Assembly: GCF_014925385.1 (NCBI RefSeq)
Contig: NZ_JACSDK010000008.1
Span: 186,001-250,000 of the forward strand
Origin: Pelagibius marinus
GTDB taxonomy: Bacteria; Pseudomonadota; Alphaproteobacteria; Kiloniellales; Kiloniellaceae
Reading direction: 5' to 3'
DNA length: 64,000 bases
Shown: piece after piece, positions 11,649 through 19,005 of the stretch
Layout of the letters: each line of letters begins with the position of its first letter
How positions within the stretch are numbered: the stretch's first letter is position 1
Notes under the pieces: generated by a model
Database searches by the model: none
What the model was told of the DNA's origin: nothing
Seen by the model: the letters and a program-made list of their open reading frames with translations, nothing else
Made by a program: the position numbers and the translations under genes

Positions 11649-12482
11649 ATGGCAAGGTGGATGAAATCTCTGGCAGCCGCGGCCGGCATCGCCGCGCTGG
11701 CCAGCTCGGTCGCCGTCTCGGGCGCCTCGGCCGACGCGATCAGCGACATCAAGGGGCGCGGCAAGCTGATCGTCGGCGTGAAGGCCGACTATGCGCCCTA
11801 CGGCTTCCTCGACAGCAGCGGCAAGATCGTCGGCATCGAGCCGGAACTGGCTCAGGACGTGGCCGACGTGCTGGACGCCGACCTGGAGCTGGTGCCGGTG
11901 GTCTCCTCCAACCGCATGCAGTTTCTCGAGCAGGGCAAGATCGACCTGATGATCGCCACCATGACCGACCGCAACGACCGGCGCGAGGTGGTGCAGATCG
12001 TCGACCCGAACTACTATTCCTCGGGCACCAACATCCTCACCAAGGGCAACTTCGCCAAGTGGGAAGACCTGAAGGGCGCGCCGGTCTGCGGCATTCAGGG
12101 CGCTTTCTACAACCGCAAGACCTCCGAGGAATTCGGCGCCGAGATCGTCGCCTTCAAGGGCACGGCCGAAGCGCTGACGGCGCTGAAGCAGAACCGCTGC
12201 GTCGCCTTCGTCTACGACGACAGCTTCATCGTCTCGCGCCTGGGCGATCCCGACTGGGAAGGCTGGAAGATGCCGCTGCCGACCATCGACGACGCCCCCT
12301 GGGGCCTGGCCGTGAAGAAGGGCGAGGACGCCTTCGCCATGCTGATGTCCGGCATGATCGTGAAGTGGCACGTTTCCGGGCGCATCCTGGAGCTGGAGAG
12401 CAAGTACGGCCTGGAGCAGACCCCCTTCGCCAAGAAGATGCACCAGGCCTTCCTGGACTTTAACCCCTCGATCGAGCGGTAG
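11649..12482 (+). CDS. Polar amino-acid ABC transporter, periplasmic substrate-binding protein
   Basis: 277-aa extracellular solute-binding protein (family 3). A Sec signal peptide (MARWMKSLAAAAGIAALASS, cleavage near GASA) is followed by the typical opening IKGRGKLIVGVKADYAPYGFLD and GIEPELAQDVADVL. It captures an amino acid or similar compound in the periplasm and passes it to the permeases encoded next. The ribosome site is AAAGGGAG. The first gene of the four-gene set (binding protein, two permeases, ATPase), it is separated from the rest by a GC-rich inverted-repeat element. Ligand not determinable by eye. Confidence 0.93.
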   Translation: MARWMKSLAAAAGIAALASSVAVSGASADAISDIKGRGKLIVGVKADYAPYGFLDSSGKIVGIEPELAQDVADVLDADLELVPVVSSNRMQFLEQGKIDLMIATMTDRNDRREVVQIVDPNYYSSGTNILTKGNFAKWEDLKGAPVCGIQGAFYNRKTSEEFGAEIVAFKGTAEALTALKQNRCVAFVYDDSFIVSRLGDPDWEGWKMPLPTIDDAPWGLAVKKGEDAFAMLMSGMIVKWHVSGRILELESKYGLEQTPFAKKMHQAFLDFNPSIER

Positions 12483-12488
12483 TTTTTA

Positions 12489-12664
12489 TTCCCTCTCCCC
12501 TGCGTGGGAGAGGGTTGCGGAGCGTTGGTGAGGTCCGCGAGACCGAACCTACGCGCAGCTGGGTGAGGGGGCCGTCGGCAGAGATATCCCCCTCACCCAG
12601 CTCCGGCTAGGCTCGGCAACAGCCTCGCCGAGCCTGCGCAACCCTCTCCCGCCGGGGGAGAGGG
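12489..12664. repeat. GC-rich intergenic inverted-repeat element
   Basis: About 175 bp in which CCCTCTCCCC...GAGAGGGTTGCG...GTGAGGG on the left is mirrored by CCCTCACC...GCGCAACCCTCTCCC...GGGAGAGGG on the right, so the whole can fold into a long interrupted stem. It lies between the binding-protein gene and the first permease gene. Elements of this design are common between genes in alphaproteobacteria. It may stabilise the upstream mRNA and favour high expression of the binding protein; that is inference. Confidence 0.75.
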
Positions 12665-12687
12665 AAACACTTTTCGGGGGCGGCAAA

Positions 12688-14330: not shown

Positions 14331-14349
14331 TGGGGCGTTTGCCACATGG

Positions 14350-14435
14350 TTCGAGACGCCCCTGCGGGGCTCCTCACCATGAGGTCAGAGTGTTGCCTCA
14401 CCCTGAGGAGCGGTCTGCAGGGCCGCGTCTCGAAG
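14350..14435. repeat. Intergenic repeat, TTCGAGACG family, copy 1
   Basis: Imperfect palindrome starting TTCGAGACGCCCCTGCGG and ending GGCCGCGTCTCGAAGG, with CTCCTCACC and CCTGAGGAG in the middle. A related copy lies at 24808-24891 after the aminotransferase gene. It occupies most of the 136-bp gap between the second permease and the ATPase gene. Confidence 0.7.
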
Positions 14436-14466
14436 GGTGCCTGCGTGATGAATTGAGAGAGCCGTC

Positions 14467-15228: not shown

Positions 15229-15364
15229 GATTCTCCCCTTCGACAGCACGGAAACACGCACGCCAGCAGAGCATGCTTAGCTTGAGAGTCTCGACTTAAA
15301 ATCAAACTCCTATGGGCAACGCACTCCCGCGCTTGCCCAAGGAGCCCATCCCTCTTCTGCCAAG

Positions 15365-15691
15365 CTAAGTTTGATCCGCTTCTTCGGAACTGCCGCCGCC
15401 ATCAGATCGCCGCACCGTACCAAGGACATAGCCAGCGACCCCACTCAATAGGGCAACGGCTCCATCGGATAGTTTGCCAAGAATGGCCAAATAGGTGGTG
15501 GCAACGATGATGATCAGAATCGTCGAAAGCTTGAGGAGTTCTATCCTTTGGAGAACGTCGCGGAGAGTTCTGCCATACTCGTTAGGAATTCTAGAGAATA
15601 CGTACATGAGAACTACAGATATACAGATGATTATAACGACGAACACTAATGTGACGCCCGCCGCCCAGAAGAATTCCTCATCTATATCCAT
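15365..15691 (-). CDS. Small membrane protein of unknown function
   Basis: 108-aa protein with two strong hydrophobic segments (about 8-32 and 55-71) and a weaker third (about 76-91), then a short acidic Ser/Gly-rich tail. The ribosome site GGGAGGG lies six bases before ATG 15691. It is on the same strand as, and 119 bp after, the HerA gene, in the same lower-GC block. I do not recognise the family. It could be an accessory or effector of the defence pair, or an unrelated cargo gene; there is a hairpin but no clear terminator between it and herA. Confidence 0.62.
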   Translation of the reverse strand: MDIDEEFFWAAGVTLVFVVIIICISVVLMYVFSRIPNEYGRTLRDVLQRIELLKLSTILIIIVATTYLAILGKLSDGAVALLSGVAGYVLGTVRRSDGGGSSEEADQT

Positions 15692-15810
15692 TTGGCCCTC
15701 CCTTTGTAAATTAGTTATGGGCTTTCCTGGGAAACCTCGCCCTGCGTACTGATAGTTCTGTCGCGGAGGCCGCCTTCCGCTTATCCGTCGAAGGCGCTTT
15801 AACCCAACAC

Positions 15811-17466
15811 CTATGCCTCAAACGGCGCTCGCTCCTGCATCCGCCAACGTCGCACCATTGCGTCTATGTAATCTTCGCCCGCTACGTCTTCCGTCCAAAG
15901 TTTAACAAAGGGAACATCTGCGCTTTGCGGTCGCCGCTCAACTGGTATGGCATTGAAGCGCAAACGAACGGGCACAACAGTTCCTTCACCAACGATCAAA
16001 GCTTCTTGAGTTCGGAGTGTAGGTAGAATCTCAACCAAGCTACTAACAGAGTCTGGCAATGCACGTTGGACGAATTTTTGATCCTGTTGGTTGCTCATGC
16101 GCAAAGCCACAAGCGTATTACATTGGGAAAGGATTGACTCTGCCAGTTCCGACGGCCTTTGCGACACCAAGCCAAGTCCAACGCCATATTTGCGTCCTTC
16201 TTTTGCAATTCGTGAAAGCGCCTGTTTGGTTGGCTGGAATGCCGCATCATCTCGTCGAGGGGCGTAGCGGTGTGCCTCCTCGCAAACGAAAAGTATTGGA
16301 ACTTGAACAGGACGCGGCCCCCAAACCGCAAAGTCGAATACCATTCGACAAAGCACCGATACAACGACGTCCACTACGTCCGATGGCACTCCCGAGATAT
16401 CAATTACCGAGAGCGGCTTTGACGCCACAGGGATTCGAAGATAGTTGCTTACAATGTTGGCGAGGCTATCCGATACGTCGTCATCCGGTCTGATCATGAA
16501 CGAGAATCGGCTATCTGCCTGCAATGCTCTAATCTTGTTCTCGATCTTCAGGTACGGGTCTTGCTTTGCCGTTTGTGGGGGCTTGCTCTTCTCAACATGC
16601 TTAAGGAGGTCCCCTAGACGGTAGGGAACTGGCGTATCCACGGTGATACTATCTTTCGGTATGCCATCAGCACCGAACTGGCGACGCGCATCGAGAATAG
16701 CATCTCTGAGGATATTCGTTTGGCTCGTCGCAACAAATTCTGTTTTTCCGATAAAGAGTTCTATGCTCTCCTCGAAATTTAGGAGCCAATGAGGCAGGTT
16801 GAGGGAGGTCGGATCGATAACCTCCGCCTCATCTGGAAATGCCACACTATACTCGTTATGAGGATCGAGTAGAATGATATGCGCATTCGGCGCTGCGGCT
16901 AAAATAGACCGAAGGAGCACAACCACCGAACAGGACTTGCCCGATCCTGTGGTGCCCAAGACAGCGAAGTGTTTTCCGAGCATTTCGTCGGAGAGCAAAT
17001 AGACGGGCAAGGACGATGCTTGAGAGAGAGAACCGACTCGTATGCTAGGCCTAGATGGCTGATGGTAAATTCTGGAAAGCTCATCCACACTTGCCACGTA
17101 AATACCCTGCCCAGGCAATGGATATGTAACTACTCCTCTTTGAAATTCAAAGTCGGCCTCCTTCAGCCCTGTTCGTAAAGCTTCCCCGAACAGTTCAACT
17201 TCAAGCCACTTCGCATCTGATGTGGTGCCGAGCGATTCGAAACCACCTTCCGTTGTTGGCGCTTCATGCATCCGTAGCGCTGTCACGACTCCAAATACAA
17301 GTTTGTCCCCGGCTTCAATTTTCACAATCGACCCCACCTGACCAACCGTATAACGGCGACTTCTATAGGTTCGATATAGATCTTCAACTGATGCCTCTAG
17401 CTCCCCGAGGACCCGTGCGCCAGACACCTCCACTACCCGTCCAATCTTGAGGATCTGCTCGCTCAT
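15811..17466 (-). CDS. herA: HerA-like ATPase/translocase of a SIR2-HerA defence pair
   Basis: 551-aa FtsK/HerA-type hexameric DNA motor. An N-terminal HAS-barrel-like region (about 1-130) leads to Walker A GTTGSGKS (171-178) and Walker B ILFVCEEAHRYAP (391-403), followed by the sensor region GLGLVSQRPSEL (about 431). ATG 17466 overlaps the stop of the upstream SIR2 gene by four bases (ATGA), so the two proteins are made together; an ATG at 17511 would overlap it much more. In known SIR2-HerA systems the two proteins form a complex whose NAD+-depleting or nuclease activity aborts phage infection. That role is inferred here from family and gene order. Codon use is less GC-biased than the flanking genes. 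Confidence 0.9.
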   Translation of the reverse strand: MSEQILKIGRVVEVSGARVLGELEASVEDLYRTYRSRRYTVGQVGSIVKIEAGDKLVFGVVTALRMHEAPTTEGGFESLGTTSDAKWLEVELFGEALRTGLKEADFEFQRGVVTYPLPGQGIYVASVDELSRIYHQPSRPSIRVGSLSQASSLPVYLLSDEMLGKHFAVLGTTGSGKSCSVVVLLRSILAAAPNAHIILLDPHNEYSVAFPDEAEVIDPTSLNLPHWLLNFEESIELFIGKTEFVATSQTNILRDAILDARRQFGADGIPKDSITVDTPVPYRLGDLLKHVEKSKPPQTAKQDPYLKIENKIRALQADSRFSFMIRPDDDVSDSLANIVSNYLRIPVASKPLSVIDISGVPSDVVDVVVSVLCRMVFDFAVWGPRPVQVPILFVCEEAHRYAPRRDDAAFQPTKQALSRIAKEGRKYGVGLGLVSQRPSELAESILSQCNTLVALRMSNQQDQKFVQRALPDSVSSLVEILPTLRTQEALIVGEGTVVPVRLRFNAIPVERRPQSADVPFVKLWTEDVAGEDYIDAMVRRWRMQERAPFEA

Positions 17467-18539
17467 CCATCCTCTCCCGCAATGAAATCCACAAGATTTT
17501 CGAAACGCCAAAGTGCAGCGGAAAGAATCTTTTCCGAGTCCTCAGAGTCAACAGCCTGTCCTATGAATGTGCCCTCTTCATTGTCACCAACAAAGGCGTT
17601 GAAGCGTGATTGACATTGCTCTGCCAGATGCTTGAGGCGAGCATCTTGCATATCCCTGTCTGCATCTGGACCAACAAATGCAATAACTGTGAGGTTGGTG
17701 TTGCGGGTGTTTACCGCATCCGTGATAGCCTCATTGATATGTTCATCGTTGAAGCTATAACCGAGGACAACTAGGCAGTTGTTTGCGCTTTGCATCCGCA
17801 TTCGGTCGCGGAAACGACCCATTAGTGTCTCGTAGACACCAAATTGTGTTTGGAGATACTTCTGCTCCGACGGGTAAACAACGATCGGTTCATTTACCGA
17901 GTCGCGATGAAAGCTGCGCCTAACGTTTTGCGCATCATCGCGAGTCCAGTTAATTGAACCGTGAAGCTTGTAGATGCGGAACCCGACATCTCCGGATCGG
18001 GACTCGTCGAACGTCGCACTGTCGAACCATGCTCGATTTGTACCTCGAAAGCCGTCTATGTAGGGGATGCGGAGCTCGTCAAGATTCGCTTCCAACACCG
18101 TGTCATAGTTCAGGCTGAAAATATCGCGAGGCGTACTCTCTCGATGATTCCGAATGCGTCGAAGAAACCGGCGATGGTATGAATTTGGTTGCCAATCATC
18201 GACAATCTCGTTGACAATTTTCTCCTTAATTGCCGCCAACCACTTATCTATCTGATCGATAGATACACTGTGCACATCTCCATTGGTGATCGTACTTAGT
18301 ATATTTCGGTAACGCTGAAGATACGTGATGAGGTCCTCAATCGTCGCTGGACGGCCATTCGTTTGCTTTAGATTGCTAAACTGTAATTGGAGTTCAGAGT
18401 CCGCTTCTTCCATCACCTGCGTTGTAAGTGCGCCGATCAGGGGCTTGTTTGCGCAGGCACTGCAACCAGCTCCAATTAGAAAGCATGTTTCAGCGCCAGT
18501 GAGCCACTGCAGCACTTGCTCCCGCACGTCCACTGACAT
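17463..18539 (-). CDS. SIR2-domain NADase of a SIR2-HerA defence pair
   Basis: 358-aa SIR2-like protein, cytoplasmic. Motifs in order: GAGCSA (23-28, NAD binding), FSLNYDTVLE (141-150, Asn144), KLHGSINW (191-198, His193 as expected catalytic base), VVYPSEQKY (220-228) and LVVLGYSFNDEHIN (256-269). This is the SIR2_2-type arrangement found in anti-phage proteins, not the zinc-binding deacetylase type: there is no four-cysteine zinc site. Its stop overlaps the herA start. GAGG precedes ATG 18539 by eight bases. Expected action is NAD+ hydrolysis after phage sensing; not shown here. Confidence 0.9.
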   Translation of the reverse strand: MSVDVREQVLQWLTGAETCFLIGAGCSACANKPLIGALTTQVMEEADSELQLQFSNLKQTNGRPATIEDLITYLQRYRNILSTITNGDVHSVSIDQIDKWLAAIKEKIVNEIVDDWQPNSYHRRFLRRIRNHRESTPRDIFSLNYDTVLEANLDELRIPYIDGFRGTNRAWFDSATFDESRSGDVGFRIYKLHGSINWTRDDAQNVRRSFHRDSVNEPIVVYPSEQKYLQTQFGVYETLMGRFRDRMRMQSANNCLVVLGYSFNDEHINEAITDAVNTRNTNLTVIAFVGPDADRDMQDARLKHLAEQCQSRFNAFVGDNEEGTFIGQAVDSEDSEKILSAALWRFENLVDFIAGEDG

Positions 18540-18684
18540 TTCTAAACCTCGATAGTTGAGTTGCCATACGAATGATACTCCTATAAGTAGCTCAGATCGA
18601 GATTCATTTGCTGATAAGCACTTAACGCAGCAGGTTCACCAAGTTGAGCAGTTCCGTATGAGACTTCCAGCAAGAAACCACCCC

Positions 18685-19005
18685 ATGATCACCGCCATCG
18701 TCCAGTTCAAGCTGCCGTCCGGGATCAAGCGCGAAGACGTCATCGCCGCCTTCAACACCAGCGTCGAGCAGTTGCGCGGCTACCCCGGGCTGATCCGCAA
18801 GTACTACCTCTATGACGAGGCGGCCGGCACGGCCGGCGGCGCCTATCTCTGGGAGAACCGGGCGGCGGCCGAGGCCCTCTACAGCGATGCCTGGCTTGAG
18901 ATGATCGCCGAACGCTACGGCGGCAAACCCCAGATCACCTGGTTCGAGACGCCCGTGGTGCTGGACAACGCCAGCGGCGAGGTCCTCTCCGAGGCCGCCG
19001 AGTAG
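18685..19005 (+). CDS. YdhR-like putative monooxygenase (dimeric alpha/beta barrel)
   Basis: 106-aa ferredoxin-fold protein. MITAIVQFKLPSGIKREDV, GYPGLIRKYYLYDE and GGAYLWENRAAAEAL resemble the YdhR/antibiotic-monooxygenase group of small cofactor-free proteins. ATG 18685 is the family-like start; an in-frame ATG at 18556 adds 43 unlike residues. The ribosome site is poor. It marks the return to high-GC chromosome after the defence block. No clear substrate. Confidence 0.72.
   Translation: MITAIVQFKLPSGIKREDVIAAFNTSVEQLRGYPGLIRKYYLYDEAAGTAGGAYLWENRAAAEALYSDAWLEMIAERYGGKPQITWFETPVVLDNASGEVLSEAAE

Follow-up and report, generated by a model that had tools for sequence, protein, structure and literature searches.

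A predicted SIR2-HerA anti-phage module of a diverged lineage in a low-GC block of the Pelagibius marinus genome

The analyzed window, a stretch of 64,000 nucleotides of the Pelagibius marinus genome, contains a low-GC block that encodes a SIR2-type protein, a HerA-type ATPase and a short hydrophobic protein (Table 1). The SIR2 and HerA ORFs are both intact and lie on the same strand. For HerA, the likely start codon is the ATG at 17466-17464; it shares the sequence ATGA with the SIR2 stop codon, exactly the overlap described in the original prediction; a longer HerA ORF (15811-17511), opening with TTG, is a mechanical extension. Among 14 close relatives, the junction of the two genes is ATGA in nine and TGATG in the other five.

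Table 1. Coordinates of the genes and of the inserted block in the window.
Feature	Position	Strand	Evidence
SIR2_2-domain protein, predicted NADase effector, 358 aa	17463..18539	-	PADLOC, Pfam, invariant residues, fold matches
HerA-type ATPase/translocase, 551 aa	15811..17466	-	PADLOC, Pfam DUF87, solved relatives, Walker motifs
108-aa hydrophobic protein	15365..15691	-	ORF in same low-GC block
Inserted low-GC block	15229..18689	.	bounded by homology to syntenic genome G004

The SIR2 protein matches the PADLOC model PDLC04093 (1.1e-54) and the Pfam family SIR2_2 (55.1 bits, cut-off 24.5), the latter being its sole Pfam match at E ≤ 1. Asn144 and His193, previously proposed to be catalytic, are numbered exactly and, together with Tyr145 and Asp146, are invariant in all 21 aligned SIR2 proteins (the window protein, 16 from loci of the contig scan and four from genomes of relatives, one row being partial). 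They align with the pocket of N-Y-D plus H that the cited section of PMC11263360 describes as common to DSR2, ThsA and SIR2-HerA. Among solved structures, the best sequence relative is 8w9l (7.2e-34). An AlphaFold2 model, built from 15 sequences, had pLDDT of 76.8 and pTM of 0.78, with pLDDT below 50 in the loops 166-172 and 223-233. In a Foldseek search of this model against PDB, ranks 1-37 were occupied by chains of SIR2-HerA systems, while ThsA appeared from rank 38 and DSR2 also ranked below the SIR2-HerA chains. Hence, the nearest solved relatives come from SIR2-HerA systems and not from non-defence families. Assignment to Thoeris ThsA or DSR2 was rejected, as the protein is 358 aa long and carries SIR2_2 alone, with no fused SLOG domain or long helical sensor.

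The HerA protein matches the PADLOC model PDLC04105 (6.6e-133) and Pfam DUF87 (152.9 bits, cut-off 23.2), so that the best PADLOC matches of both proteins are defence families; its solved relatives are 8wiv (the best one, 2.2e-79), 8ziq and 8xau. The Walker motifs are intact, as had been claimed: Walker A is GTTGSGKS at residues 171-178, and the Walker B motif VCEEAH begins at residue 394. Walker A is present in all 57 HerA proteins of the second HerA tree described below, and the Walker B pattern in 56 of them. The NCBIfam anti-phage equivalogs are the best-named matches of both proteins, though the scores are far below the cut-offs: 75.7 against 500 bits for SIR2_antiphage (NF042942) and 321.5 against 850 bits for HerA_antiphage_2 (NF042944). 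Therefore, the pair was assigned to a diverged lineage and not to those named equivalogs. Two other HerA-containing arrangements were considered and rejected, namely HerA-DUF4297, since no DUF4297 nuclease was among the Pfam matches of the partner protein at E ≤ 1, and the HerA-NurA DNA repair pair, since no NurA match was found among six proteins scanned in the block and its flanks.

The best solved relatives of both window proteins belong to the SIR2/HerA complex represented by PDB entries 8wld, 8w9l (PsSIR2) and 8wiv; 8wld holds both SIR2 and HerA, and 8w9l and 8wiv come from that one system, the organism of which is presumably Paenibacillus. The window SIR2 aligns with 8wld and 8w9l in fold with TM of 0.72-0.74 by query length, at 24-26% identity, and its GAGCS stretch reads differently in the PsSIR2 chain. 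The Nezha, or SIR2-HerA, systems of Escherichia coli (8su9, 8sub, 8j4u) and Vibrio cholerae resemble the window pair in the combination of SIR2 and HerA, the NYD and His residues, and the SIR2 fold; the E. coli SIR2 is 16-19% identical to the window protein in fold alignments. Ten further loci, in which SIR2 and HerA also adjoin or overlap, differ from the window clade in the length of SIR2 (396-419 aa vs 354-359 aa) and in the presence of a small KTSC gene after HerA, found in all ten (L022, L094, L095, L097 and L103-L108, L106 being an archaeal plasmid) and in none of the window clade. An HMM built from seven annotated KTSC proteins found no match at 14-20 kb of the window or in its clade; there, L018 breaks off inside HerA and is uninformative, and in L010 the sequence continues for only 389 bp past HerA. 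Two of the KTSC loci (L104 and L106) have annotated ADP-ribosylglycohydrolase genes close by. According to the cited part of PMC9503650, KTSC proteins adjoin HerA in variants with an endonuclease replacing the sirtuin. None of 28 papers listed in a literature search contained both "SIR2-HerA" and "KTSC domain".

One scan of genome contigs yielded 16 SIR2 loci, in 15 of which HerA directly follows SIR2 on the same strand, in agreement with the gene order of the known systems that had been recognized at the outset; in the remaining locus (L023) no HerA was found. Fourteen loci (L008-L021) are close relatives, with SIR2 52-65% and HerA 70-77% identical to the window proteins. Two of these are cut or partial (L018, interrupted by the contig end inside HerA, and L021), and in L020 the HerA frame that was found starts 191 bp after SIR2, without its first 83 residues. 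In L022, both SIR2 and HerA are more distant from the window pair. The hosts of the 14 relatives are Alpha-, Beta- and Gammaproteobacteria, Acidobacteriota and Chloroflexota, the last two with one metagenome contig each; nine of the 14 records are titled as metagenome bins, and binning errors are possible. The label Beta- is taken from the genus names.

Phylogenetic trees recovered the window clade, with 14 rows, for both genes, in line with the joint inheritance of the pair: support was 94/90 in the SIR2 tree (33 rows; the partial L021 left out, longer copies used for L002-L005) and 100/100 in the second HerA tree (57 rows), where the window HerA clusters with the 13 of its 14 SIR2-adjoining relatives that were put in the tree. 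The first HerA tree (56 rows) was constructed without L002-L005, L018 (partial), L083 (HerA in two frames) and the duplicates L044, L057, L059 and L061; one of its rows labelled "other", L088, also has SIR2 adjoining HerA. In the second tree, longer copies were used for L085, L086 and L088, and L084, L087, L089, L090 and five of the eight rows of the genus were left out; the long rows L091, L098 and L099 make its deep branches unsure. Two SIR2 proteins without adjoining HerA (L023 and L096), both on long branches, are placed beside the window clade at 97/88; therefore, SIR2 proteins of this neighbourhood are not always accompanied by HerA. The second of these is annotated as a SIR2 family gene on a Shewanella baltica plasmid, where it immediately follows genes for type I restriction-modification and has no annotated HerA neighbour. 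In plasmids, 381 records matched the window SIR2, all below 60% identity, the best listed being about 31% identical; three phage records matched, likewise below 60%, and none of 30 pattern matches in viral contigs was confirmed.

The original prediction that the block at 15.3-18.6 kb is poorer in GC than its flanks holds, with the boundaries now better placed by homology (Table 1): GC content is 0.504 at 15229-18686 and 0.670 in the rest of the window, and the six 3-kb intervals of lowest GC in the whole 64 kb have their starts at 15.0-16.25 kb. Codon bias, which had been proposed as a check, follows the same pattern, GC3 being 0.50-0.53 in the three genes of the block vs 0.93 in the adjacent genes encoding an ABC ATPase and a histidine kinase. 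The proposed horizontal gain is further supported by the distribution of SIR2, which was found at E ≤ 0.001 only in P. marinus among eight genomes of the genus, being absent from the other seven, and in five of 58 genomes of relatives overall; with a limit of E ≤ 1e-20, three genomes out of 385 in the class had it, P. marinus being one of them. The matches in the other genomes are 27-37% identical to the window protein.

The insertion site could be compared with one syntenic genome of the genus, G004, which alone is informative, since of the other four genus genomes compared at a flank, G001, G002 and G006 share the left side only, and G005 only the histidine kinase. G004 has both flanks, with left pieces 92-95% identical and right pieces 82% and 90% identical to those of the window; on the left, the DNA homology extends exactly to the stop codon of the adjoining gene (15228), and on the right it begins again at 18690, a few nucleotides into ydhR, which starts at 18685. 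G004 has no ATG at the place matching this start, and its ydhR may start differently. Between the flanks G004 carries 1,971 bp of DNA with GC of 0.42-0.50, unrelated to the block (alignment score of 24, with shuffles giving a mean of 25.5 and 43 of 50 as high). An unrelated low-GC insert at the same site means that cargo has been exchanged there. The single protein encoded by the G004 insert (at L052:4487-6139), about 550 aa long, resembles a P-loop ATPase, and its gene is a candidate for defence: Pfam AAA_16 and nSTAND1 match below their cut-offs, and PADLOC gives PDC-M28C (2.7e-6) and AriA (3.9e-5). The ORFs of the block include no integrase, the window has no tRNA, and clear repeats flanking the block were likewise not found. 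Elsewhere in the window, the intergenic stretches 12482-12665 and 14340-14450 have many copies of about 80-100 bp, in either orientation, across related genomes and are probably dispersed palindromic repeats.

It is well supported that the pair belongs to a known kind of system, of which it is a diverged lineage, and we infer its role in defence from there. We are confident, if short of certain, that the block brought in a horizontally gained two-gene SIR2-HerA (Nezha-type) module with a predicted anti-phage function. By analogy with the characterized systems, the two proteins very probably form an alarm of the known kind that destroys NAD upon phage infection. Twelve SIR2 subunits would join a HerA hexamer in one large complex, the 12:6 stoichiometry given in PMC11559045 and PMC12198126; HerA would license the SIR2 active site, and the licensed complex would hydrolyse NAD+ on infection. 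The translocase of HerA may contribute as well, and so may the nuclease activity that has been reported for the SIR2-HerA of E. coli. In V. cholerae, mutation of the active-site Asn or His (N168A, H227A) or loss of herA abolishes defence (PMC11559045). For the Staphylococcus aureus SIR2, PMC12198126 cites that its NAD+ pocket opens when HerA binds; the same paper lists the trigger of SIR2-HerA as unclear.

A different reading of these activities is that SIR2-HerA mainly modifies or cuts invader DNA, with SIR2 acting as a DNA ADP-ribosyltransferase or nuclease, HerA as a translocase, and NAD+ loss being secondary. Such a role was proposed for HerA-linked sirtuins (PMC9503650), nuclease activity of the E. 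coli system is cited in the relevant passages of PMC11559045 and PMC12198126, and the window sequence fits both readings. However, we consider it unlikely, given that in V. cholerae mutations of the NADase site abolish defence and phage genes rebuilding NAD+ counter the system (both from the section of PMC11559045 cited above).

The 108-aa ORF, absent from the original prediction, lies 119 bp downstream of the HerA gene on the same strand and, judged by eye, probably encodes a membrane protein. It has no family match at cut-off in PADLOC, Pfam or NCBIfam. Its position in the same low-GC block would suit a system of three genes, with the downstream protein anchoring or executing the response. 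This is very improbable, as no homologue was found in the 16 SIR2 loci (E ≤ 0.01), and the homologues found elsewhere are in three genomes (G021, G097 and G319), none of which has a listed SIR2, and on one Rhizobium plasmid; in viral contigs, none of 33 pattern matches was confirmed. The 108-aa protein is probably cargo and no conserved part of the SIR2-HerA system, which we continue to treat as a pair.

A second HerA, 47% identical to the one in the window and with no adjoining SIR2, is encoded in all eight genomes of the genus. In P. marinus it is located at G000:C19:112617-114308 (L056:6618-8312), and the gene order around it is the same in the three genomes checked (G000, G004 and G007): two genes, which we take to be plsX-like and fabH-like, then a gene for a SPOR protein, HerA and CutA1, the SPOR and CutA1 proteins having been identified by Pfam in G000 only. 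This resident protein matches the same PADLOC HerA model at 3e-127; therefore, a HerA match alone is not diagnostic of defence. In a sample of the class, HerA matches at E ≤ 0.001 were found in 56 of 190 genomes, many of them being weak. A very improbable explanation of the two genes, that their HerA has a housekeeping role, as DNA translocase or as repair ATPase, and an incidental SIR2 neighbour, could draw on this widespread SIR2-less copy and its PADLOC score and on the SIR2 proteins without HerA in L023 and L096, yet it is contradicted by the identity of the window copy to 14 HerA proteins that all adjoin SIR2, by its clustering with SIR2-adjoining HerA proteins at 100/100, and by the other seven genomes of the genus, in which the 47% copy is the best HerA.

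In the second HerA tree, a branch with support of 98/99 unites the window clade with the family of alphaproteobacterial SIR2-less HerA, to which the genus-conserved copy belongs. This tree contains more SIR2-paired rows than the first, and all its 26 SIR2-less rows fall on one side of a branch with support of 84/98, so that one gain or one loss suffices. Separate recruitments of HerA were suggested by the first tree, in which the window clade was nested among SIR2-less proteins, but are not claimed here. The tree is unrooted, and the relation of the window clade to the resident family is not strongly supported. Tentatively, and we would sooner doubt this than accept it, the pair may represent a separate two-gene SIR2-HerA lineage with an ATPase that is sister to the chromosomal SIR2-less family of Alphaproteobacteria; the resident HerA could then be the source, or else a domesticated defence component stripped of its SIR2, possibly modulating the acquired HerA. 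As a separate observation, in nine of 29 loci of the class (L065, L066, L068, L069, L072, L073, L077, L078 and L081) the SIR2-less HerA ORF is directly preceded, or overlapped, by a gene for a histidine kinase (about 300 aa, HisKA and HATPase); the kinase was identified by Pfam in all five loci tested and by an HMM built from those in the other four, and the HerA ORF was delimited mechanically. Seven of the nine rows were labelled as kinase-linked in the two HerA trees, L065 and L078 having been recognized afterwards. No title on a histidine kinase-HerA pair appeared among the papers listed in literature searches.

The window pair adds to SIR2-HerA a diverged lineage found in Pseudomonadota and in one metagenome contig each of Acidobacteriota and Chloroflexota. 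A match to a HerA model should be taken as defence only when the partner gene is present too, as the resident HerA scores almost as well as the acquired one. The additional interest of the locus lies in the swapped site, a single chromosomal position that holds different low-GC inserts in two species of one genus, and in how the window clade relates to the resident HerA family: if the tentative kinship is true, the genus would hold two HerA genes of common stock, one resident and fixed, the other a defence HerA acquired in one species.
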